Below are positions 3,360 through 24,953 of a stretch of DNA of 64,000 bases, in pieces. How positions within the stretch are numbered: position 1 is the first letter of the stretch; each line of letters opens with the position of its first letter. Source of the DNA: Gemmatimonadaceae bacterium. GTDB lineage: Bacteria > Gemmatimonadota > Gemmatimonadetes > Gemmatimonadales > Gemmatimonadaceae. The DNA lies in assembly GCA_020851455.1 (NCBI GenBank), contig JADZCT010000029.1, positions 62,001 to 126,000 of the forward strand, written 5' to 3'. A model generated the notes under the pieces. The model saw only the letters and a program-made list of their open reading frames with translations, ran no database searches and was not told the origin of the DNA. The translations under genes were made by a program, and so were the position numbers.

Positions 3360-4040
3360 CTACTTCTTCTCCCCCTCGCCCTCGGCGCCTTCCTCATCCT
3401 CCGCCTTGGACTTGCGAATGAGCTCCGGCTCCGCCGGCGCAGTGGCTGCGGCCGCGGCCTCTCCTGGAGTCGGCTCTGCTACTTCCTTCGGCACCATGCA
3501 AACGCAGATCGTGCCGTCGGCGTCGTCGAGGACGTGCACGCCTTCGGGCACCGGCACGTCGCGCACGTGCAGCGACTTGCCAACCTGCAGCGCGGTGACG
3601 TCAACGTCGAGGTGGTTCGGGATCTGCGAGGGATCCACGCTGATGTGCAGTTCGCGCACCGTTTCGTCGAGGATGCCTCCGCCGTTCTTGACGCCGTCCG
3701 GTATGCCGACGAACCGGATTGGTACGCGCACGGTGATCTTCTCGCCGGCAACGAGTTCCTGGAAGTCAACGTGCAGCACGTCCCGCTTGACGGGGTGGCG
3801 CTGGAGTTCGCGGATGATCGTGCGGGCGACCGTGCCGGCAACGTCCAGCTCGATGACGGTGGTGGTGTAGCTGTGCTTCTCCAGCAGGCGGGTCAGCGCG
3901 TATGCGTCGAGCTGGAGACTCTGCGGCTCGCGCGCGTGTCCGTAGATGACCGCTGGGATCTCGCCGGCGGCGCGCAGTTTGCGCGCGGTGCCTTTGCCGG
4001 ACTTGGTGCGGGGGGAAGCAGAAAGTCGTGCCGTTGCCAT
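3360..4040 (-). CDS. rplY: 50S ribosomal protein L25/Ctc
   Basis: 226 residues, the long Ctc form with two domains: an N-terminal 5S rRNA-binding L25 barrel (about 1-95; Lys-Gly-Thr-Ala-Arg-Lys-Leu-Arg and Pro-Ala-Val-Ile-Tyr-Gly signatures) and a C-terminal TL5/CTC beta domain (about 100-190). The last 35 residues are an Ala/Glu/Lys-rich acidic tail, common in this form. ATG at 4040 is preceded by a GAGG ribosome-binding site. The gene follows prs, the classic prs-rplY-pth arrangement. Confidence 0.97.
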   Translation of the reverse strand: MATARLSASPRTKSGKGTARKLRAAGEIPAVIYGHAREPQSLQLDAYALTRLLEKHSYTTTVIELDVAGTVARTIIRELQRHPVKRDVLHVDFQELVAGEKITVRVPIRFVGIPDGVKNGGGILDETVRELHISVDPSQIPNHLDVDVTALQVGKSLHVRDVPVPEGVHVLDDADGTICVCMVPKEVAEPTPGEAAAAATAPAEPELIRKSKAEDEEGAEGEGEKK

Positions 4041-4131
4041 CTGTATTTACCTCTGCATAGCGGCGCGCTACGCGGGTTCCCGGACATTCGCCGGCCCGGC
4101 GGCGCGTCATGTGTCGAGCAGTGGCTGCGCG

Positions 4132-4151
4132 CGGCGGGCGAGCGCCCGCCG
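4132..4151 (-). terminator. Hairpin after prs
   Basis: A perfect 8-bp GC stem (CGGCGGGC / GCCCGCCG) with a 4-base loop starts 14 bases beyond the prs stop, inside the 125-base prs-rplY gap. No U-run follows, so it may only attenuate read-through into rplY. Confidence 0.4.
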
Positions 4152-4165
4152 ACGTGCCCTTCCGC

Positions 4166-5119
4166 TCAGTCGAACAAACTGCTCACGCTCTGGTCCGCGT
4201 GGGTGAACCTGATTGCCTTCGCCAGCAGCTCGCCAACGGAGAGCACGTTGAGCTGCGGGAACCGCCGCGACCCGGGAATCGCGATTGAGTTGGTCACGGT
4301 GACTTCCTTGATCGGCGAGCTCGCGAGCCGTTCCACCGCGGGGCCCGACAGCAGCGCGTGCGTCGCGCACGCGTAGATGTCCCGGGCTCCGAGGTTCTTC
4401 AGTGCGCGCGCGGCCTCCGACATCGAGCCGGCGGTGTCTATCATGTCGTCAACGAGGAGGCAGTCCCTTCCGGCGACCTCGCCCACGACGTTGACGACTT
4501 CGGCCACGTTCGGAGCAGGCCGGCGCTTGTCAATGATCGCGAACGACCCGTTGAGTCGCTTGGCGAATCCACGTGCCATCTTCGCGCTGCCTACGTCCGG
4601 CGCCACGACTGCGAGGTCCTGCAGCCCCTTCTTCCGGTAATGAGTCGCGAACACCGGCACGGCGTAGAGGTGGTCAACCGGGAGGTTGAACATTCCCTGA
4701 AGCTGGTGGGCGTGAAAATCCAGCCCCAGCACCCGGCTCGTTCCCGTCGCCTCGATGAGGTTGGCCATGAGCTTGGCGCCGATCGCGACGCGCGGCTGGT
4801 CCTTGCGGTCCTGGCGCGCGTAGCCGAAGTAGGGGATTACGGCGGTGACCCTGGCTGCCGAGGCCCGCCGCGCCGCGTCAACGAGGAGCAGCAGCTCGAG
4901 CAAGTTCTCCGCGGGCGGGTTGGTGGGCTGCACGATGAACACGTCGGCGCCCCGGACGTTCTCGTCAATCCGCACGAACACCTCGCCGTCCGCGAAGCGG
5001 CTCGTGGTGCACCTGGCCAGGTCAACGCCCAAGTGTTCCGCGATCTCCGTTGCGAGTTCGCGATTGCCCGTCCCGGTAAGTACCCGGAACGTATGGGAGG
5101 AGACCGCCAAGTCACTCAT
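4166..5119 (-). CDS. prs: Ribose-phosphate pyrophosphokinase
   Basis: 317 residues, standard for PRPP synthetase, which makes PRPP from ribose 5-phosphate and ATP for purine, pyrimidine, His, Trp and NAD synthesis. Visible motifs: Arg-Phe-Ala-Asp-Gly-Glu (41-46), the flexible-loop Tyr-Ala-Arg-Gln-Asp-Arg-Lys (100-106), His-Ala-His (136-138 region), and the PRPP-binding loop Val-Asp-Asp-Met-Ile-Asp-Thr-Ala-Gly-Ser at 223-232. The frame is open 48 codons further upstream, but that extension runs across tRNA-Gln, so ATG 5119 is the start. It heads the prs-rplY-pth-ychF group. Confidence 0.97.
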   Translation of the reverse strand: MSDLAVSSHTFRVLTGTGNRELATEIAEHLGVDLARCTTSRFADGEVFVRIDENVRGADVFIVQPTNPPAENLLELLLLVDAARRASAARVTAVIPYFGYARQDRKDQPRVAIGAKLMANLIEATGTSRVLGLDFHAHQLQGMFNLPVDHLYAVPVFATHYRKKGLQDLAVVAPDVGSAKMARGFAKRLNGSFAIIDKRRPAPNVAEVVNVVGEVAGRDCLLVDDMIDTAGSMSEAARALKNLGARDIYACATHALLSGPAVERLASSPIKEVTVTNSIAIPGSRRFPQLNVLSVGELLAKAIRFTHADQSVSSLFD

Positions 5120-5148
5120 CGGGGAGAGCCCTGAAAAATACCCAGTTT

Positions 5149-5171
5149 CGCCGGCGTCTTCAATGCCGGCG
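5149..5171 (-). terminator. Hairpin plus delayed T-run between tRNA-Gln and prs
   Basis: Reading on the minus strand, a 7-bp stem (CGCCGGC / GCCGGCG, 9-base loop) is followed ten bases later by TTTTT. It could end the tRNA-Gln transcript or attenuate entry into prs. The offset T-run makes this weak. Confidence 0.35.
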
Positions 5172-5186
5172 GCGGTGCGGCGGGAG

Positions 5187-5257
5187 TTGCCCCCGGTGGA
5201 TTCGAACCACCATTCTGCGGTCCAAAGCCGCATGTCCTGCCATTGGACGAGGGGGCA
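5187..5257 (-). tRNA. tRNA-Gln (UUG)
   Basis: A 71-base cloverleaf closes completely: acceptor TGCCCCC/GGGGGCA with discriminator A, D stem GTCC/GGAC, anticodon stem TGCGG/CCGCA with loop CTTTGGA (anticodon TTG), a 4-base variable loop and T stem GGTGG/CCACC with TTCGAAT. No CCA is encoded. It lies 67 bases upstream of prs on the same strand. Confidence 0.96.
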
Positions 5258-5330
5258 GTGCACGAAAGGTATCGGCGGACTGCCGGGCGCGCACGCGCGC
5301 GCCTTGCCCTCGCCCGCGCGACATCGTCGT

Positions 5331-6284
5331 TCAGGCGATCGTCACCGGGGCGGTACGGGTCGCCGTCTTGGCGTGCAGGACCGTGAAGCCCGGGGGGACG
5401 CCGACGAGCCCGACCGAGGGTCCGTCGGGGAATACGCCGAAGGCTGTGGAGCCAGAACCGGTCATCTGCGCTATTGGCGCGCCGGCGGCGCGCAGCAGCG
5501 CGATCGCCGTTCCTATCACGGGGTGCCGCTTCACGACGACATCCTGGAGGTCGTTGCCGCTGAGGGCCGCGATCTCCTGCCACGAAAAGTGGCGCTCCGG
5601 TGAGCCAGCGCCGGGCCGCTCCGGCGAGTGGGTTGCGGCGAGTGCAGCGTCGCCCGCGACAAGCCCGATCCCAGCGGCTGGCGTTGCCATCGGGTCTGGC
5701 TGGCGGCCGGCGGCCTCACGCGACGCTGCGTACCAGCCAAACGCGTCGCGTGACGAGACGCCGAACGGTGGCACGAGGAGGATCATATCGCGCGGTGGCG
5801 GCGGCGAGCACGCCGCGAAGACGTCTCCACGGACGAATCCGATCGCGGTCGGTGATTCGCCCGTGAGGAATGGCACGTCAGCTCCCAGCCCGCGCGCGAC
5901 CGCCAGGAGCGTCTCGTCGTCGAGACGGCGCGGCGCCATCGCGTTGAGCGCTCGGAGCACCGCGCCGGCGTCGGCGCTACCGCCGCCAAGGCCCCCGCCA
6001 ACGGGAATCGTCTTGTCCAGTTCTATCGCGAATGAATCTGGCCAGCCGGCGGCGTCGCGGAAGCCAGTTGCGGCGCGAAACGCCAGATTCGATTCTACCG
6101 GCCCAGCGTCCGCGCCGCGGCAGTCGAGCGAGCGGCCGGAAACGGCTGTGCGCACCACCACCGTGTCCGCCAGCGAAATACGCTGGTACAGCGTCTCGAT
6201 CCGGTGGTACCCGCTTTCCTCGCGCCCCAGGATCCGGAGGAAGAGGTTGACCTTGGCCTGGGCCTGAACGGTTGCCTCGGGCAC
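5331..6284 (-). CDS. ispE: 4-diphosphocytidyl-2-C-methyl-D-erythritol kinase
   Basis: 317 residues from a GTG at 6284, two bases after the stop of the upstream gene; a longer open frame exists but covers that gene. IspE phosphorylates CDP-methylerythritol at the 2-hydroxyl in the non-mevalonate isoprenoid pathway. GHMP-kinase marks: N-terminal Ala-Lys-Val-Asn-Leu-Phe-Leu (9-16), the Gly-rich ATP loop Pro-Val-Gly-Gly-Gly-Leu-Gly-Gly-Gly-Ser at 94-103, and the C-terminal Met-Thr-Gly-Ser-Gly-Ser motif. An Ala/Pro-rich insert of about 25 residues lies at roughly 200-225. It is last in the pdxJ-ispE minus-strand run. Confidence 0.95.
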   Translation of the reverse strand: MPEATVQAQAKVNLFLRILGREESGYHRIETLYQRISLADTVVVRTAVSGRSLDCRGADAGPVESNLAFRAATGFRDAAGWPDSFAIELDKTIPVGGGLGGGSADAGAVLRALNAMAPRRLDDETLLAVARGLGADVPFLTGESPTAIGFVRGDVFAACSPPPPRDMILLVPPFGVSSRDAFGWYAASREAAGRQPDPMATPAAGIGLVAGDAALAATHSPERPGAGSPERHFSWQEIAALSGNDLQDVVVKRHPVIGTAIALLRAAGAPIAQMTGSGSTAFGVFPDGPSVGLVGVPPGFTVLHAKTATRTAPVTIA

Positions 6285-16600: not shown

Positions 16601-17077
16601 GGGTTGCTGCAGATGGCGCAGCAGGCACAGGCAGGCCAGGCTGCAGAGGGTGTTCGCACCCAGGCGCGAGAGTTGAGCCGCGCCCAGCGGGATGTGGCGC
16701 AGCAGCTCGCGGAAGTCGGCGATGCCGACCAGTCGGGCCGTGCGGCCGAGCTTGCGCGCGAAGCGAAACAACTTGCGCAGGCGCTCGAGCAGGGCGCCGT
16801 GGATCCCGCCGTGCTCGAACGGCAGCAGCGCCTGTTCAGGCGGATGCTCGACGCCGGCCGCACGCTCCAGAACGAAAAGCAGGACGAGTCGGCCAAGCGC
16901 GAGTCGAAGCCCGGCGACCAGTCGAACCCGTTCCTTCCTCCCGGCGGGCCGGTGGCGGGCCGTTCGGCGCTGAAGTACCGGGTTCCCGAGTGGAACGAGC
17001 TCCGCGGCCTGAGTCCCGAGGAGCGGCGTCTCGTCATTGACTACTTCCGTCGCCTCAACGGCGACACCCGCCCCTGA
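13661..17077 (+). CDS. Giant DUF4175-like membrane protein with Gln-rich coiled coil
   Basis: 1138 residues. Three membrane segments (about 21-42, 52-74, 146-163) are followed by beta-rich domains (about 170-480) and a very long predicted coiled coil from about 490 to 1090. At about 740-800 it breaks into a Gly/Gln-rich low-complexity stretch. This is the layout of DUF4175 proteins, which occur in envelope operons with MoxR/DUF58-type genes; no enzyme motif is visible. The tail ends Glu-Arg-Arg-Leu-Val-Ile-Asp-Tyr-Phe-Arg-Arg-Leu-Asn. Overlaps the DUF4159 gene by four bases. It may form a large periplasm-spanning rod; that is inference. Confidence 0.85.
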   Translation: MTLLQIVDRERRGALRLLQLSVLARSAAALVAVLSLGALALGGSHWIVLPRVVPFVIWGGALGLAGWIVARYVRAVRREASPVAIAGAVESEQQLRRGSLRGLVELADNRTAFVQRASERLAERLAPLPAPLAPGLRRTLARGVLRGGAVIVGAAVIATIVAARSGDGWRALAHPVDAWRGALLSPISMVDVPTRLLRGSSFRLTIRADGRQAVRLMRRSTGNAWVETPLSLTAGTVTTELGPLDADLTLVASDGRAASDTAVIRVVDRPFLGDVSVTMSFPAYLKRAPETVPADAMLRLPEGTSLAIQGHSSEALAAVMLARGPDSLRLAPDGRRFSGRFLPVASGSWEWVARGVTTQIADVPPPLSIEVVPDSAPVAEIMAPMADSLVEPDGRVAVELLASDDHALESVALRLVRVDAAGRADEPSVQVLGGAGLADWAGSFTLDLAKFRLGAGDAVRLQLVAFDASPKRMRGASREVTLKVPATEEQRSAARAAADSAAARVAALSKAVADLQQRTEQAANQRAAQGAGQQPMEFDKAQQAQKLAQQQKEMSQQVRDVSQAAKDIEKRLRDAGALDTSLARQLQQAQDLMRQALTPEMLDALKKLENSSQQLAGDQARQSLGELSEQQKKMREALEKSTEILKRAALEGAMQTLKDEANELARQQRARADSGRNATPDELKRLDQRTQQLSKDLESLRDKLEKAQADTAAKQANAALDEAQRAAEALDRAMQNKSQQQGQQQAGAQGQQGGAQQQGGAQQQGGGQGGQQQGQQGQQQGGAKGQQGGQSQDGKQQGAPNAGDAADALQRAADALAEGRKAQVEEWKSEVTGEIDQSLQEMLQLARQQDDLASKARRDPGNATLRSEQGAIEQGVEKAAQRLANESRRSALVSQGSQRAMEEARQRVSQAAREAGDPQAMSAAPASMADAAAALRQVASALARDRERANTSQSASGLGELLAQLQQLAQQQGGLNGQMQGLLQMAQQAQAGQAAEGVRTQARELSRAQRDVAQQLAEVGDADQSGRAAELAREAKQLAQALEQGAVDPAVLERQQRLFRRMLDAGRTLQNEKQDESAKRESKPGDQSNPFLPPGGPVAGRSALKYRVPEWNELRGLSPEERRLVIDYFRRLNGDTRP
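15917..15952 (+). repeat. Tandem 18-base repeat in the Gln-rich linker
   Basis: GGTGGCGCACAGCAGCAG occurs twice in a row (15917-15934 and 15935-15952), then a degenerate third start. It encodes Gly-Gly-Ala-Gln-Gln-Gln units, in frame, inside the low-complexity linker of the DUF4175-like protein. Confidence 0.85.
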
Positions 17078-17105
17078 GGATCGCGCGGCGCGGGTGGCGA
17101 TAGTG

Positions 17106-18938
17106 ATGCGGGCAGGGGAGGCATCGTGGCGGCTGGTGCTTGCGCGCGTAGCTGGGCGCACGGCTCTGGCTGTGCGCTGCGCATCCGCAATGGCTTCGGT
17201 GGCGGCAGTTGCCGTGGTTGCAGGGCCGGCGTCTGCGTCCGCGGCCGCGCAGGCGCAGCAGGCGCAGCAGGCGCAGCAGGCGCAGCAGGCGCAGCAGGCG
17301 CAGCAGGCGCAGCAGGCGCAGCAGGCGCAGCAGGCGGCGATAGGCAAGGCGGTGGACCTCGAACAGTCCGGGCGCTGGGTTGACGCGATTGCCGCGTGGC
17401 GCGGCGTGCTCGCGGCCGGCGAGGTGGAGCAGGCCGCGCTTGGCCTCGAACGTGGGTTCTCCCAGCTTGGCCAGGAAGACTCCATCCGCGCCCTGGCCGA
17501 CAGCCTGGTGGCAACGCGGCCCGCCAACCGCGTGCTGCGTTCGATCCAGATCAGGACGCTCCGGTCGCTCGGCCGGCTCGACGACGAGGGGCGAGCGTTC
17601 GAGGCGTGGGTTGCGGCGGCGCCGGGCGAGGCAGCTCCGTACCAGGTGTACGGGAACCAGTTGCTGATGGACGGGCGTGCCGCGCGCGCCGATACGATCC
17701 TCCGGCGCGGCGTGCAGCAAGCCGGGGCAGCGGCGTTCCAGCTCGAGCTGGCGCAACTCTACGTGTCGCTTGGGCGCTGGGCGCGCGGGGCTGCGGCGTG
17801 GCGTGAGATCGTCGCCGCGGAGCCGTACATGGACCAGTCGGCGCTGTTCTCGCTGGGGGCGGTGCCTGCGGGCGAGCGCGATTCCGTGCGCGCGGCTCTG
17901 TCGGCGGCGCCGATGTCGGCCGGCGCGCGGAAGGTTCTGGGTATGCTCGAACTGCAGTGGCTCGATGCGAGGGAGGGATGGCGGATCCTCTCCGCGCTGG
18001 GCGTCGCCGATTCGGCCTATGCCACCTGGGCGGACTTTGCGTCCGGGGCCGAGCGGCAGGGCGCGTGGATACCGGCGCGCGAAGCGTTGCTGAGAATGTC
18101 GTCCACGAAGCCGGAACTGTCGGTGCTCCTGCGCGCCGCCGCGGCCTCGGTGTCGGGCGGCGAGCCAGCGGCGGCCCTTCCAATACTCGCAGGCGCGCGG
18201 CGGCTGGCCGACGGAACCGCGTTGCGCACGCGGGTGGTTCCGCTCGAGGTCCGAGCGTTGACGACGATGGGCCGGGCCGGCGAGGCGGAGGCGCTCGTGC
18301 GCAAGGATGGCGCGCAGGCCGATGAAGGGACGAGGCAGGCGTACGCGCGCCAGATCGCGTGGGGCTGGGTGCGCGCCGGCGAGGTGGAGAAGGCGCGCGC
18401 CGCGCTGGCCGGTGCGAGCGCCGACGACGACGAAGAAGTCTCCGGGTGGATTGCGCTGTTCGAGGGCAACCTCGTGCAGGCACGTGCCGGACTGCGTCGC
18501 CCGGCAGATGCCACGCCGGATGTCGTCACCGCGATGGCGATGCTTGGGCGAACCCGCGCCGACACCAACGCTGACGTTGGCGCCGCATTCCTCGCGTTGG
18601 CCCGCCGTGACACTGCGGCGGCGGCCAACGGGTTCGAGCGCGCGGCGGGCGAGCTCGGTGGAGCGGCACCGCTGATGCTTGCGTTCGCGGCGCGCCTGTG
18701 GGCGGCGAAGAAGTCGGATGCGGCGGCGATCGCGCTGTGGGGCCGGATTGTCGAGCGGTACCCGAAATCGCCAGAGGCGCCCGAAAGCGACCTCGAGTGG
18801 GCGCGCACGCTCCGGCGCAAGGGTGACGCAAGTGGCGCGCGGGAACGCCTGGAGCACCTGGTAATCAGCTATCCTGAGAGTGCGCTGGTTCCTCAGGCGC
18901 GGCGTGAACTGGAATCGTTGCAGGGGGGTGCGTCGTGA
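17106..18938 (+). CDS. Exported TPR protein with Ala-Gln-Gln repeat
   Basis: 610 residues from ATG 17106 (GTG 17094 is also possible), 28 bases after the previous gene. A Sec signal of about 45 residues ends in an Ala-rich stretch, then nine Ala-Gln-Gln repeats, then helical TPR-like repeats to the end, with a clear canonical pair in the last 80 residues (Pro-Lys-Ser-Pro-Glu-Ala, then Tyr-Pro-Glu-Ser). Ala/Leu-rich helices and conserved Gly/Trp positions in between suggest about ten repeats. It is probably a periplasmic scaffold for the DUF4159/DUF4175 set; the next gene starts by GTGA overlap. Confidence 0.8.
   Translation: MRAGEASWRLVLARVAGRTALAVRCASAMASVAAVAVVAGPASASAAAQAQQAQQAQQAQQAQQAQQAQQAQQAQQAAIGKAVDLEQSGRWVDAIAAWRGVLAAGEVEQAALGLERGFSQLGQEDSIRALADSLVATRPANRVLRSIQIRTLRSLGRLDDEGRAFEAWVAAAPGEAAPYQVYGNQLLMDGRAARADTILRRGVQQAGAAAFQLELAQLYVSLGRWARGAAAWREIVAAEPYMDQSALFSLGAVPAGERDSVRAALSAAPMSAGARKVLGMLELQWLDAREGWRILSALGVADSAYATWADFASGAERQGAWIPAREALLRMSSTKPELSVLLRAAAASVSGGEPAAALPILAGARRLADGTALRTRVVPLEVRALTTMGRAGEAEALVRKDGAQADEGTRQAYARQIAWGWVRAGEVEKARAALAGASADDDEEVSGWIALFEGNLVQARAGLRRPADATPDVVTAMAMLGRTRADTNADVGAAFLALARRDTAAAANGFERAAGELGGAAPLMLAFAARLWAAKKSDAAAIALWGRIVERYPKSPEAPESDLEWARTLRRKGDASGARERLEHLVISYPESALVPQARRELESLQGGAS
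17253..17333 (+). repeat. Nine copies of a 9-base repeat (GCGCAGCAG)
   Basis: Nine perfect head-to-tail copies of GCGCAGCAG encode nine Ala-Gln-Gln units just after the signal peptide of the TPR protein. Because the unit is nine bases, copy-number change would keep the frame and only alter linker length. Confidence 0.97.
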
Positions 18939-20251
18939 TCTGGTGGATGAGCGATGGGGCCAAGACGCCGCAGCGGGGCGGACGGCGGTTCCCGGCAGCG
19001 CTGTGGCTTGCCGTACTGGCCTCGACGCTGGTGTCGGGCGCGGTACGCGCGCAGAACCTCTTGGTCCCGATGGACGAGGCGCAGCAGAACCACCTGCGTG
19101 CGTACGGGCTTACGTACTTCGCCCTGAAAGAAGGCGACCGCGCGGAATGGTGGCTCAACTACCGCGGCGGCAGCTTCCTGCTGCCCGACAACCCAGGGCT
19201 GCGCCGGAAGGCCGCGCTCGACGGGGTGACGGTGCAGCCGATTGACGCCGCTGGCGTTGCGGAGGCGCGGCGCGAGATCGCGCAGAGCAACATGGACGCG
19301 ATCCCGCTGGAGAAGGCGCCGCACGTGGCGATCTACTCTCCGCCGAAGTCGCCGCCGTGGGACGACGCCGTGACGCTGGCTCTCCGGTACGCCGGGATTG
19401 ACTACACGCAGATCTGGGACGACGACGTGCTCACGGAGGACCTGTCGAAGTACGACTGGATTCACTTGTTTCACGAAGACTTCACCGGGCAGTTCAACAA
19501 GCTTTACCTCACCTACCGGAATGAACCGTGGTTCATCGAGGAGCGCGATCGCGACCTCACCACGGCTCAGCGTCACGGGTACGCCACAGTGCCCGCGCTG
19601 AAGAAGGCGGTCGCCGCGCGGCTGCGCGATTTCGTTGACCGCGGAGGGTTCATCTTCGCGATGTGCGGCGCCACGGAGACGCTCGAACTCGCGCTCGCGG
19701 GGCAGAACGTGGACATTGCCGCCCCGTTTCTCGACGGCACGCCCATAGACCCGGACGCGGACGCGAAGATGGACTGGACCAGGTCGTTCGCGTTCCAGGG
19801 AGCGCACATCGAGATGAACCTCGGCGTGAACGCGATGAGCGACATTGACGGCCACCAGGTGAACGTTCCATCGAGGCGTCAGAGTCTCGGGACCTTCACG
19901 CTCTTCAACTTCTCGGCGAAGTTCGACCCCGTGGCGACGATGCTCGTGCAGGATCACCGCACCGTAATCCCCGACTTCTACGGCGTGACCACGTCGTTCG
20001 TGAAGGCGCGCCTCAAGCCAGGCGTTACCGTGCTTGCCACGGAGGAGGGCACCCCGTGGGTGAAGTACATCCACGGCGACTATGGCAAGGGATCGTGGAC
20101 CTACCTTGGCGGGCACGACCCCGAGGATCCGCAGCACAACATCGGCGCGCCTCCGACCGATCTGGCCCAGCGGCCGAACTCGCCGGGCTACCGCCTCATC
20201 CTCAACAACGTACTTTTCCCGGCCGCGAAGAAGAAGCCGCTGAAGACGTGA
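18935..20251 (+). CDS. Exported GATase-like protein of unknown function
   Basis: 438 residues from GTG 18935 (ATG four codons on is possible). A Sec signal ends at about Ala-Arg-Ala-Gln40. The body looks like a class I glutamine-amidotransferase/ThuA-type Rossmann fold: Trp-Ile-His-Leu-Phe-His (175-180), an Ala-Arg-Leu-Arg-Asp-Phe-Val-Asp-Arg-Gly-Gly-Phe helix-strand unit (228-239), then Phe-Ala-Met-Cys-Gly-Ala-Thr-Glu, placing Cys244 at the nucleophile elbow. The helix-strand unit resembles that of the DUF4159 protein upstream. Some databases may label such proteins asparagine synthetase B; no such domain is visible. The helicase follows by GTGA overlap. Confidence 0.75.
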   Translation: MIWWMSDGAKTPQRGGRRFPAALWLAVLASTLVSGAVRAQNLLVPMDEAQQNHLRAYGLTYFALKEGDRAEWWLNYRGGSFLLPDNPGLRRKAALDGVTVQPIDAAGVAEARREIAQSNMDAIPLEKAPHVAIYSPPKSPPWDDAVTLALRYAGIDYTQIWDDDVLTEDLSKYDWIHLFHEDFTGQFNKLYLTYRNEPWFIEERDRDLTTAQRHGYATVPALKKAVAARLRDFVDRGGFIFAMCGATETLELALAGQNVDIAAPFLDGTPIDPDADAKMDWTRSFAFQGAHIEMNLGVNAMSDIDGHQVNVPSRRQSLGTFTLFNFSAKFDPVATMLVQDHRTVIPDFYGVTTSFVKARLKPGVTVLATEEGTPWVKYIHGDYGKGSWTYLGGHDPEDPQHNIGAPPTDLAQRPNSPGYRLILNNVLFPAAKKKPLKT

Positions 20252-22836
20252 GGAGCGCGCTTCCCGCGAAGGCAGCGGCCGCGGCAGGGCCGCCGGCATC
20301 GCGGCTTTCCCCGACGGCAGCCCGCGCCATCCGCACGGCGATCGTCCTCGCGGGCGGGCGCGAGGTGTGTTTCACCTGCGAGGTGGACGGCTCGGGGGGC
20401 GTCGTCGCCGCCCGCGTCGTGGCGCGCGGCGACGCGACTAGCGTGCTGGCCCTGCCCGGGTTTGCGAAGCGCGGAGAAATTCTCGTTCACAACCATCCTT
20501 CCGGCGTTCTCGATCCGTCGGGGCCCGACCTTGACGTCGCCGCGCGCATGCACGACGAAGGGGTCGGGTTCGCCATCGTGGATAATGACGCGACGCGGTT
20601 CTACGTCGTGGTCGAAGTTCCGGAAGCGCCAGAGATCGTCCAACTGGATGGGGGCGAGGTTGCCTCGCTCCTGGGGTCCGATGGACCTGTCGCCGCCCTG
20701 CTTGGGCGCTACGAGGACCGTCCGGCGCAGCGGGAGATGGCCAGCCGCGTCGCTCGCCTCTACTCGCTGGGCGGAATCGGGCTCATCGAGGCAGGCACCG
20801 GCGTTGGCAAGTCGCTCGGGTACCTCGTGCCGGCTCTGCGGTGGGCGGCAGCCAACGGAGAACGCACGATCGTGAGCACCAACACGATCACGCTGCAGGA
20901 GCAGCTCGTAGGAAAGGACCTGCCGTTCCTCGCCGAGGCGCTCGACGATCAGCCGGTACGCTTCGCGCTGCTCAAGGGCTGGCGCAACTACGTGTGCCTG
21001 CAGCGGCTGGAGCAGGCGCGCAGCGCGGCGGGGTCGTTGTTCGAGCCGGAGCTGATGGGTGAGTTCGACGCCATTGACCGGTGGGCCGCGCGCACGAGCG
21101 ACGGGTCGCTCGGCGACCTGCCGGCGCCCCCGCGCGCGGAAGTGTGGGACGAGGTTGCCGCAGAATCGGACCTCTGCACGCGGCTCAGGTGCCCCTACTT
21201 CGATCGCTGCTTCGTGTTCAGGGCGCGCCGGGCGGCTGCGCAGGCCGATGTCATCGTCGTGAACCATCACCTGCTGATGGCCGACCTCGCGGTGCGCCGC
21301 GCGTCGCAGAACTGGGACGACGCCGCGGTGCTGCCGTCGTACTCGCGGCTGGTGATTGACGAGGGGCACCATCTCGAGGACGCGGCTGCCTCGCACCTTG
21401 CGAGCAGGGCGTCCCGGCGCGGCGTGCAGCGGCTGCTCTCCCGCATCGAGCGCAAGGGCAGAGGGCTCCTGCCCGCGCTCGAGACGATGCTCGGGCGGTC
21501 GAACGACCTTCTGTCGGTAGCGAGTCTCGACTTGGTGCGGGTGCGCCTCTACGGCACGCTGCAGTCCGCGCGGCAGAGCGCCGAGCGGCTGTTCGACGTG
21601 CTCGACGGCTGGATGGCGTCGCAGCCGGACTCGCAAGTGCGCCTCACCGACGCGTTCGACGACGAAGGCGTCTGGCGCGCCGGGCTCGGCGACGCGCTCG
21701 ACGGCCTCCTTCGCGAGCTGGACGCGCTTGGCGACGGACTCACGCTCGTGCGTGACCGCGTCGAGCTCGATGAATCGCGCGCCGAGGAACTGGCGCCGCT
21801 GATGGGCGAACTGCGCGGCGTGATTCGCCGGCTCGAAGGTGCGGGCGACGCGCTGCGCGGCGCGCTGAGGCCAGATGGCGGCGAGCACGAGCGGATCCGC
21901 TGGATCGAGTCGAAGGGCTCGGCCGGGTCGTCGGGCGGCAATGCCGGGGCGGGCGCTGGCCGCCAGCGGCAACTCGGCGTGGCCAGCGTTCCGCTGGATC
22001 TCGCGCCCATCCTCCGCGACGACCTCTTCCGTAAGGTTGACACCTGCGTCGTGACGAGCGCGACGCTTGCCGTTGGCGACGGCTTCGGCTTCATCGCGCG
22101 GCGGCTCGGGCTCGACCAGGACGACGTCGAGCCGGACACTGCGATCCTCGGGTCGCCGTTCGATTTCGCCGCCCAGGCCGTTCTTGCGATCCCCGACGAC
22201 CTCCCCGCGCCGGCGCAGGGCGACCGCGCGCACGCGGCGCGCACCGCCGAGGTGGCCGCCGACCTCATCCGCCTTGCCGGAGGAGGGGTGTTCGTCCTGT
22301 GCACGAGCCATCGCGACGTGCACGACATCGCGCGGCTGTTGCGCGAGGGCGGGGCCGGTCGCGCAGCGGGCCCACTCCTCGTGCATGGCGAGGACGGGCG
22401 CGACCAGATGCTGCGGCGGTTCCGCGACCATGGCGACGCCGTGCTCGTGGGTACGGCATCGTTCTGGGAAGGCGTGGACGTCGCGGGCCGGGCGCTCCGC
22501 GGGCTGGTGCTGGCCAAGATTCCATTTCGCGTTCCCACCGAGCCGGTCACTGCGGCGCACTGCGAGGCAATCGAGGCGGCGGGACGGGATGCATTCGCCG
22601 AGTACATGGTGCCGCACGCAGCGCTGCGCCTCAAGCAGGGGTTCGGCCGCCTCATCCGTTCCACGCGAGACCGGGGCGCGGTCGTGATCTGCGATCCGCG
22701 CGTCCTGAGGCGCGGGTACGGGGCGTCGCTGCTGGCGGGCCTTCCGCCGGCAAAGCGCCTGCAGGGCTCATGGGCGTCTCTCCGCCCGCAGCTTGCGGCG
22801 TTCTACGGGGAGTCCGATTCGTCGGATGAGGGGTAG
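20248..22836 (+). CDS. JAB/RadC-like metalloprotease domain fused to DinG-type Fe-S helicase
   Basis: 862 residues from GTG 20248 (GTGA overlap). Residues about 25-125 form a JAB/RadC-like domain with the full JAMM pattern: His81-Asn-His83, Ser91 and Asp94. From about 160 an XPD/DinG superfamily 2 helicase follows: Walker A Glu-Ala-Gly-Thr-Gly-Val-Gly-Lys-Ser (181-189), four Cys for a 4Fe-4S cluster (250, 310, 315, 321), Asp-Glu-Gly-His (371-374, in place of DEAH), motif IV-VI including Gly-Phe-Gly-Arg-Leu-Ile-Arg. The helicase unwinds DNA 5' to 3'; the role of the JAB domain is unknown. Long DinG homologues often carry an N-terminal exonuclease, which is replaced here. Confidence 0.9.
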   Translation: MRSALPAKAAAAAGPPASRLSPTAARAIRTAIVLAGGREVCFTCEVDGSGGVVAARVVARGDATSVLALPGFAKRGEILVHNHPSGVLDPSGPDLDVAARMHDEGVGFAIVDNDATRFYVVVEVPEAPEIVQLDGGEVASLLGSDGPVAALLGRYEDRPAQREMASRVARLYSLGGIGLIEAGTGVGKSLGYLVPALRWAAANGERTIVSTNTITLQEQLVGKDLPFLAEALDDQPVRFALLKGWRNYVCLQRLEQARSAAGSLFEPELMGEFDAIDRWAARTSDGSLGDLPAPPRAEVWDEVAAESDLCTRLRCPYFDRCFVFRARRAAAQADVIVVNHHLLMADLAVRRASQNWDDAAVLPSYSRLVIDEGHHLEDAAASHLASRASRRGVQRLLSRIERKGRGLLPALETMLGRSNDLLSVASLDLVRVRLYGTLQSARQSAERLFDVLDGWMASQPDSQVRLTDAFDDEGVWRAGLGDALDGLLRELDALGDGLTLVRDRVELDESRAEELAPLMGELRGVIRRLEGAGDALRGALRPDGGEHERIRWIESKGSAGSSGGNAGAGAGRQRQLGVASVPLDLAPILRDDLFRKVDTCVVTSATLAVGDGFGFIARRLGLDQDDVEPDTAILGSPFDFAAQAVLAIPDDLPAPAQGDRAHAARTAEVAADLIRLAGGGVFVLCTSHRDVHDIARLLREGGAGRAAGPLLVHGEDGRDQMLRRFRDHGDAVLVGTASFWEGVDVAGRALRGLVLAKIPFRVPTEPVTAAHCEAIEAAGRDAFAEYMVPHAALRLKQGFGRLIRSTRDRGAVVICDPRVLRRGYGASLLAGLPPAKRLQGSWASLRPQLAAFYGESDSSDEG

Positions 22837-23464: not shown

Positions 23465-24340
23465 GTGGCTGAGCGTCGCCGCCGTGTGATCAGCACGCCC
23501 GGGGAGAGGCGCGAGTCGCGTTCTCCGGGGTCGGTGGCGCTGTCCATCTCCCTCCACGTCATACTCGTGGTGGTGCTGCTGCAGATCGCGGTCGCGCCGA
23601 TGGACTGGATCAACCTGCTCATGCGGGTCGAGCCGCCGCCGGTCGAGCGAATCGGCTTCCTGCAGTTGCCGCGCGGCGAAGAGACTGGCGAGGCGCCGCG
23701 GCGCGGTGGAAACGACAGGCCAATAACGACCGCGGTTCCTCCGCGGGTTTTCGTGCCTCGGGTGACGCCATCGGAGGCGCCGAGCGGCCTCCCGTCCATT
23801 CCGGTGTCGCCCCCGCGCACGGCGCCCGACCTCGGCACCGGTCCGCTCGTAGGCGGAGGAGGGGACACGCGTGGCGTGCGGCCCTCGTACGCCGACCCGA
23901 GGCTCTGGACGCCCGTGGCGCCGGAGGTCACGGCGCCGCTTACGTACAGTGAAAAGGCCGACAGCGTGATGGCGCCGATCTACCGCATGATTGCCGACTC
24001 GATGAAGGCGGCGATGGCGGCAGGGCGCGACCCGACGGACTGGACCTTCAAGGTGGGCGGGCAGAAGTTCGGGATGGACCAGAAGTTCATCCGGCTCGGG
24101 CCCGTTTCGATCCCAACTGCTGCCCTGGCGTTCCTGCCGCTGAACGTGACGGGGAACCCGTCGTTGATTGACCGCGACAGGCGCCTTGCGGCCATGCGGT
24201 CGGAGATCATGGAGCAGGCAGCGCGCGCCTCGCGCGACGACGACTTCAAGCGGGCGGTGCAGGCGCTCCGTGAGCGCAAACAGAAGGAGCGCGACGACGA
24301 GCGGGCGAAGAAGGCCGCTCCTCCTTCGATCACGCCGTAG
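23465..24340 (+). CDS. Pro-rich single-pass membrane protein, TonB-like layout
   Basis: 291 residues from GTG 23465. A basic N terminus precedes one membrane helix (about 25-46), then a Pro/Arg-rich stretch (about 55-150) and a C-terminal helical domain with a charged Lys/Arg/Glu end. The topology is that of a TonB-like or anchored periplasmic protein, but no TonB C-terminal domain is recognisable. Family unknown. It ends convergently with the LexA-like gene, overlapping by 11 bases. Confidence 0.68.
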   Translation: MAERRRRVISTPGERRESRSPGSVALSISLHVILVVVLLQIAVAPMDWINLLMRVEPPPVERIGFLQLPRGEETGEAPRRGGNDRPITTAVPPRVFVPRVTPSEAPSGLPSIPVSPPRTAPDLGTGPLVGGGGDTRGVRPSYADPRLWTPVAPEVTAPLTYSEKADSVMAPIYRMIADSMKAAMAAGRDPTDWTFKVGGQKFGMDQKFIRLGPVSIPTAALAFLPLNVTGNPSLIDRDRRLAAMRSEIMEQAARASRDDDFKRAVQALRERKQKERDDERAKKAAPPSITP

Positions 24341-24953
24341 CGCCGCGCCGCGGTGGCCTGATCACCCCGACGGCGACGCCGAGTATTTCGAAGTCGTCTT
24401 CGCGCGACAGGTGCAGGTCGCCCGGTCCCGCTGCGCCGGTCAGGACCAGGCCCGCGCCGCGGCGTATCATTGCGCTCACGAGGATGGCTCGCGCGACCCG
24501 CGCCACCACGACGTCGCCATCATTCGCGCGCGCCGACGGGTGGACGATCACCAGGTCGTTCGCGTTGATGCCGTGCGCGGGCAGGCCGAACGGGAGTGCG
24601 CGTACGAGGCACGCATCGCTGGCGCCGGCCACGCGTCGGTCCACGGTCACATAGTCTTCGGCGACGAAGCTCCCGGTGAGCGGATCGAGCGCCAGCAGCG
24701 GCAACGGCACCGTACCCATCGCCCCGGCAAAGCCAACGAGCGACACGCCGCGGGAGCGGCCCGGATGACGGCGGACATAGCCCTTGAGGGCGAGAGCGTC
24801 GAGGATGTCGGTAACCGACTTCGTGCTCGGGATGCGCAGGGCCCTGCCGATCTCGCGTACGCTGGGCTGGAACGTATGCTCGGCGAGAAAATCGAGCAGG
24901 AACTCGTAGAGCCGCTGCTCGACTGGGGTGAGGGGCTGGCGCGGGGCGGTCAC
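24330..24953 (-). CDS. LexA-like repressor without catalytic dyad
   Basis: 207 residues. Residues 1-70 form the LexA winged helix (Thr-Pro-Val-Glu-Gln-Arg-Leu-Tyr-Glu-Phe; Gln-Pro-Ser-Val-Arg-Glu-Ile-Gly). The C-terminal part follows the S24 peptidase fold (Gly-Asp-Val-Val-Val-Ala-Arg-Val; Leu-Gly-Val-Ala-Val-Gly-Val-Ile-Arg). Aligned by eye to E. coli LexA, the catalytic Ser is Gly123 and the catalytic Lys is Ser160; the scissile Ala-Gly position is Ala78-Met79, although another Ala-Gly lies at 76-77. It should bind DNA but not self-cleave. Starts by ATGA overlap with gltX. Confidence 0.85.
   Translation of the reverse strand: MTAPRQPLTPVEQRLYEFLLDFLAEHTFQPSVREIGRALRIPSTKSVTDILDALALKGYVRRHPGRSRGVSLVGFAGAMGTVPLPLLALDPLTGSFVAEDYVTVDRRVAGASDACLVRALPFGLPAHGINANDLVIVHPSARANDGDVVVARVARAILVSAMIRRGAGLVLTGAAGPGDLHLSREDDFEILGVAVGVIRPPRRGATA

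Follow-up and report, generated by a model that had tools for sequence, protein, structure and literature searches.

The window, meaning here the whole 64,000-nucleotide stretch of Gemmatimonadaceae bacterium DNA that was analyzed, contains a gene for a RadC-like DinG that we refer to as JAB-DinG (Table 1). Its GTG start shares a four-base overlap with the stop of the upstream gene, and the product has a JAB domain at about residues 19-123 and, behind it, a helicase of DinG/YoaA type that carries four cluster cysteines. In most of the Gemmatimonadota sampled, a 438-residue protein that matches neither Pfam nor NCBIfam models is encoded directly upstream, and a conserved FAA-hydrolase gene lies downstream of JAB-DinG. 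We also observed in the window a TPR-like protein that has a run of about ten QQA repeats close to its N-terminus and a LexA-like repressor (DNA-binding domain E 7e-16) that seemingly lacks the self-cleavage Ser and Lys; the same genome encodes another LexA (L167), which looks normal and has GNSM and TVKR. None of the window's neighbour genes was detected beside JAB-DinG in other phyla. The association with the 438-residue protein and the FAA hydrolase is thus limited to Gemmatimonadota, and we rejected the idea of a functional partner among the gene neighbours.

Table 1 The JAB-DinG gene, its conserved elements and its neighbours in the window.
Feature	Position	Strand	Evidence or remarks
TPR-like protein	17037..18938	+	
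438-aa protein	18935..20251	+	
JAB-DinG (RadC-like DinG) gene	20248..22836	+	862 aa, GTG start; full-length AlphaFold2 pLDDT 88.3, pTM 0.85
N-terminal JAB/RadC domain, residues about 19-123	20302..20616	+	AlphaFold2 pLDDT 89.5; Foldseek; VIA; Pfam RadC
E39, JAMM glutamate, first strand of domain	20362..20364	+	E in 64/65 Gemmatimonadota rows and all JAMM-bearing wide-set rows
H81-N-H83-P-S-G...S91..D94, predicted metal-ligand and oxyanion part of JAMM	20488..20529	+	Motif, alignments
Linker and Q-motif region LGxDGP...YEDRPAQ, JAB to helicase	20665..20790	+	Conserved in alignments A1/A2
Walker A EAGTGVGKS, residues 181-189	20788..20814	+	G183, T184, G185, G187, K188 invariant
Fe-S module C250, C310, C315, C321	20995..21210	+	Sequence, alignment
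DEGH box, residues 371-374	21358..21369	+	Alignment
Helicase_C_2 motor domain 2, residues 672-834	22261..22752	+	Pfam PF13307 E 8.1e-39
LexA-like repressor	24330..24953	-	

The first-pass annotation of this DNA had described a JAB/RadC-type domain fused to a complete DinG-type Fe-S helicase with four cluster cysteines, and this description holds: both modules are intact in sequence, the N-terminal one is predicted to have a JAB fold and matches RadC, and the helicase has its Walker A, DEGH box, Helicase_C_2 domain and all four cysteines. The best NCBIfam model is YoaA at 541.4 bits, which is below the equivalog cut-off of 680 for NF053712. With the full-length structure model, the best Foldseek match is E. 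coli DinG with ssDNA (6fwr, E 5.9e-39), and a helix at residues 842-860 of the model corresponds to the YoaA-like C-terminal helix of motor domain 2. JAB-DinG has the motor, Arch and four-cysteine Fe-S module in common with E. coli YoaA and DinG, whereas the JAB domain is absent from both, and in our tree the JAB-DinG clade is separate from the YoaA row. We rejected an assignment to the type IV CRISPR DinG (Csf4), because the PADLOC typeIV_DinG matches fall in the helicase part and no Cas genes were found among the flanking genes examined.

Within the helicase part, three JAB-DinG lineages have a single Fe-S cysteine replaced, only ever by Ser or Thr, with the other three cysteines kept. C250 is changed to Ser in families f4-f6 of the Gemmatimonadota sampled and in part of the Planctomycetota, and C310 to Ser or Thr in ten rows from KSB1, Calditrichota and related bacteria (variant loci L047, L048, L055-L073, L093, L110, L115-L117, L125, L130, L131, L141, L142, L149, L151 and L156). 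Single C-to-H, S or D variants of DinG are already described in a 2025 review of DinG-like proteins (PMC11981726), and we therefore treat this variation as a detail of distribution.

The reading frame and residues H81, H83, S91 and D94 were found as first annotated, with canonical HxH-x7-S-x2-D spacing. The "full JAMM pattern" claimed for these four residues, however, omitted the catalytic glutamate, which we assign to E39; E77, beside the HNH, was rejected for this role as it is variable in the alignment. The set E39-H81-H83-S91-D94 is invariant in 64 of the 65 aligned Gemmatimonadota rows, and each of the 127 JAMM-bearing proteins checked has E39 together with HNH...S..D (one missed the scripted pattern, and its glutamate was found by reading). 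The JAMM residues are invariant across every intact copy. When the first 150 residues were shuffled 20,000 times, an HxHP..S..D motif arose by chance only once. The domain is compact, with 41 residues between E39 and H81.

Searching the PDB by sequence with the domain returned a single weak match, the Chlorobium tepidum RadC structure 2qlc (E 0.06), and a structure comparison was therefore needed. We modelled the domain with AlphaFold2 using an alignment of relatives, and Foldseek and VIA-align found a JAB fold, as the annotation had predicted, and not a non-JAB one. The first Foldseek matches are all chains of 2qlc (E from 1.7e-5), followed by CSN5, BRISC and Rpn11; VIA-align gave a Z-score of 9.8 to Rpn11 and 8.3 to 2qlc. 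Comparison of profiles with the stand-alone RadC proteins of the same family gave 96% probability. Pfam RadC scores slightly under its cut-off with the whole protein (residues 78-103, 21.3 vs 22.1 bits) and above it with the isolated domain (26.9 bits), and it is matched by 58/58 relatives in alignment A2. By sequence and predicted structure, we assign the domain to the RadC clade of JAB.

We then have two known groups with which the domain can be compared. With stand-alone RadC (PF04002; C. tepidum 2qlc) it shares the HNHPSG..PS..D core and the closest Foldseek match. Full-length RadC is made up of an N-terminal part and JAB over about 220 residues, and, unlike in RadC, that N-terminal region is absent from JAB-DinG: the full-length models TIGR00608 and NF000642 match residues 78-104 only, far below cut-off. 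With the JAMM isopeptidases Rpn11, CSN5, BRCC36 and AfJAMM it shares the JAB fold and a complete JAMM with E...H-x-H-x7-S-x2-D, but it has a RadC-type HNH instead of HS/TH. The same substitution, N between the histidines where there is S/T, sets JAB-DinG apart from the proven JAMM metalloproteases, whose H-x-H-x7-S-x2-D spacing (PMC300881) it otherwise follows.

In Gemmatimonadota, this fusion is the form that DinG normally takes. Matches to the protein at E 1e-30 were found in 248 of 298 genomes of the phylum, and JAB-DinG is the usual form in its families f1-f6; the survey proposed with the first annotation confirms that the fusion is conserved in Gemmatimonadota. In the source genome it is the sole DinG-like helicase, and an intact, separate full-length RadC is kept on contig C4; a second RadC gene is present in the same genome as a fragment that contains a stop codon (G000, contig C80:4543-4773). 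We also scanned the GTDB species genomes with a degenerate DNA pattern, HNHP separated by 259-319 bases from a Walker A ending in T, that was designed to leave out most Gemmatimonadota. All 75 stretches recovered encode an in-frame JAB-DinG. Beyond Gemmatimonadota, the protein thus occurs in a minimum of eight named phyla; judged by record title, the matches come from KSB1, Calditrichota, Dadabacteria, Planctomycetota, Fusobacteriota, Nitrospinota, Thermodesulfobacteriales, Deltaproteobacteria, Dependentiae and Spirochaetes bins; Actinomycetota and Bacteroidetes are each represented by a single metagenome bin that may be misassigned. A phage origin was rejected, as the domain had no match in the phage collection at E 1e-3. 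In the plasmid collection the best DinG matches cover the helicase part only, except for one Fusobacterium record, in fact 2.1 Mb long, whose JAB domain has decayed.

The history of the domain was followed in a helicase-only tree of 107 proteins, with six other DinG/YoaA proteins as outgroups. All JAB-DinGs fall in one clade (SH-aLRT 98) apart from these six, and the JAB state changes five times, for which one gain and four losses is the simplest reading. A single origin of the fusion is supported rather than proven by this tree, since there are only six outgroups and the motif was used to select the wide set. Within the clade, the domain was lost or decayed at least four separate times while the helicase was kept. 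In genera g3, g5 and g8 of the source's own family the domain has disappeared, leaving a short linker, and further losses were found in g71, in g65 with g78, and in Fusobacterium vincentii. In g78 (L073) and F. vincentii (L085, DinG at 3812-6280) a region of domain length is retained without the histidine ligands (LLLSQESGHIGVSHDE and VVIRTTKPKQLYPSDM); F. mortiferum (L088), unlike its relative F. vincentii, keeps the full JAMM set. Most domain-less Gemmatimonadota copies still have their neighbour genes in place and so occupy the same locus. A separate JAB gene upstream of these copies was rejected: no H-x-HP...S/T..D was found in any frame of the locus DNA examined in the domain-less lineages. 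Because the domain is repeatedly lost or decayed with helicase and locus retained, it is separable although conserved where kept, and it is therefore dispensable for the core role of the helicase. Taken with the invariant JAMM residues, the sequences suggest a conserved, separable and probably active metal hydrolase.

This architecture is already described and not new. A RadC-DinG fusion was discussed in 2017 (PMC5512222), and the 2025 review delineates a subgroup, 'RadC-like DinG', by the four catalytic residues E, H, H and D that our protein also carries and describes it as experimentally unstudied (PMC11981726). As in its example from Desulfuromonas soudanensis, our protein has an N-terminal RadC-like domain with E39, H81, H83 and D94, a YoaA-like motor, Arch and Fe-S domains, conserved ATP- and DNA-binding motifs and the C-terminal helix; no feature among those compared speaks against membership, and from sequence and model we class the protein as a RadC-like DinG. 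Gemmatimonadota do not appear in the review's main text, and we did not meet JAB losses or pseudo-JAB members in that text, while part of the phylum spread may already stand in its supplementary table. Relative to the review text, our analysis adds a Gemmatimonadota member, the phylum spread, the series of losses and the pseudo-JAB forms. The likeness to ExoDinG (S. aureus/B. subtilis type; TIGR01407, PRK08074) lies in an extra enzymatic domain in front of the helicase, but this is a DnaQ-type exonuclease in ExoDinG and JAB here. Accordingly, the ExoDinG models match only the helicase part, from about residue 151-156, and no N-terminal exonuclease was found by Pfam, NCBIfam or structure comparison. 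The JAB domain thus fills the slot of the exonuclease of Bacillota-type DinG, as the first-pass annotation had noted.

For the function, we put at about an even chance the reading that JAB-DinG is a 5'-3' Fe-S helicase of DinG/YoaA type whose RadC-clade JAB has nucleic acid, and not a ubiquitin-like protein, as its most likely substrate. One metal, probably zinc, would be bound through H81, H83 and D94, E39 would activate water, and the domain would hydrolyse something on the strand or junction opened by the motor, possibly cutting or trimming nucleic acid at a stalled or damaged structure. A nucleic-acid substrate is favoured by the domain's place in the RadC clade and by its position, which is the slot of exonuclease or endonuclease domains in other DinG proteins (PMC5512222; PMC3482391), and a nuclease hypothesis for RadC-type JAB has been put forward before (PMC5512222, PMC3482391, PMC11981726). 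Against this reading count the structural matches to Rpn11 and CSN5, with Rpn11 ranked above RadC by VIA, the repeated loss of the domain, and the fact that no published activity for any RadC-type JAB was found in the literature searched.

Those same VIA Z-scores, best to the JAMM peptidases Rpn11 and CSN5, and the metalloprotease spacing of the motif are what would speak for an active metallopeptidase that clears protein roadblocks or covalent adducts from DNA during unwinding, comparable in role to the Spartan protease, which is of a different family. We consider this unlikely, as the sequence is of the RadC clade, which a published analysis describes as having no ubiquitin-tail groove (PMC5512222); the source genome also has no match to a ubiquitin-like E2, a weak argument since a control search was equally empty. 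The isopeptidase or protein-removal role proposed at first annotation accordingly found no direct support, and we moderately favour DNA-strand processing over isopeptidase action. It is also rather improbable that the domain is no longer enzymatic and serves as a structural or DNA- or protein-docking module: its absence or decay in several lineages that retain the helicase, and the fold-like region that persists without His ligands in F. vincentii and genus g78, would fit such a role, but docking would not demand that five JAMM residues stay invariant across many phyla wherever the domain is kept. That the motif arose by chance in a linker and no JAB domain exists could draw on the sub-threshold whole-protein Pfam score, and is refuted by the high-confidence fold, the invariance, the in-frame recovery of every scan match and the RadC matches of the relatives; we give it next to no weight.

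Going beyond nucleic-acid processing as such, we tentatively raise the possibility, itself somewhat doubtful, that JAB-DinG is a helicase-coupled JAMM enzyme with an activity new for the RadC clade, cutting DNA or DNA-bound proteins as the motor passes. The fusion would then be ancient and shared by many phyla, and natural versions would exist in which the domain is dead or missing. The question whether RadC-type JAB domains act as nuclease, peptidase or neither dates from their recognition, and a helicase of known polarity provides one of them with a defined context. Since close relatives with intact, decayed and absent domains can serve as controls, the question becomes testable in one protein family.
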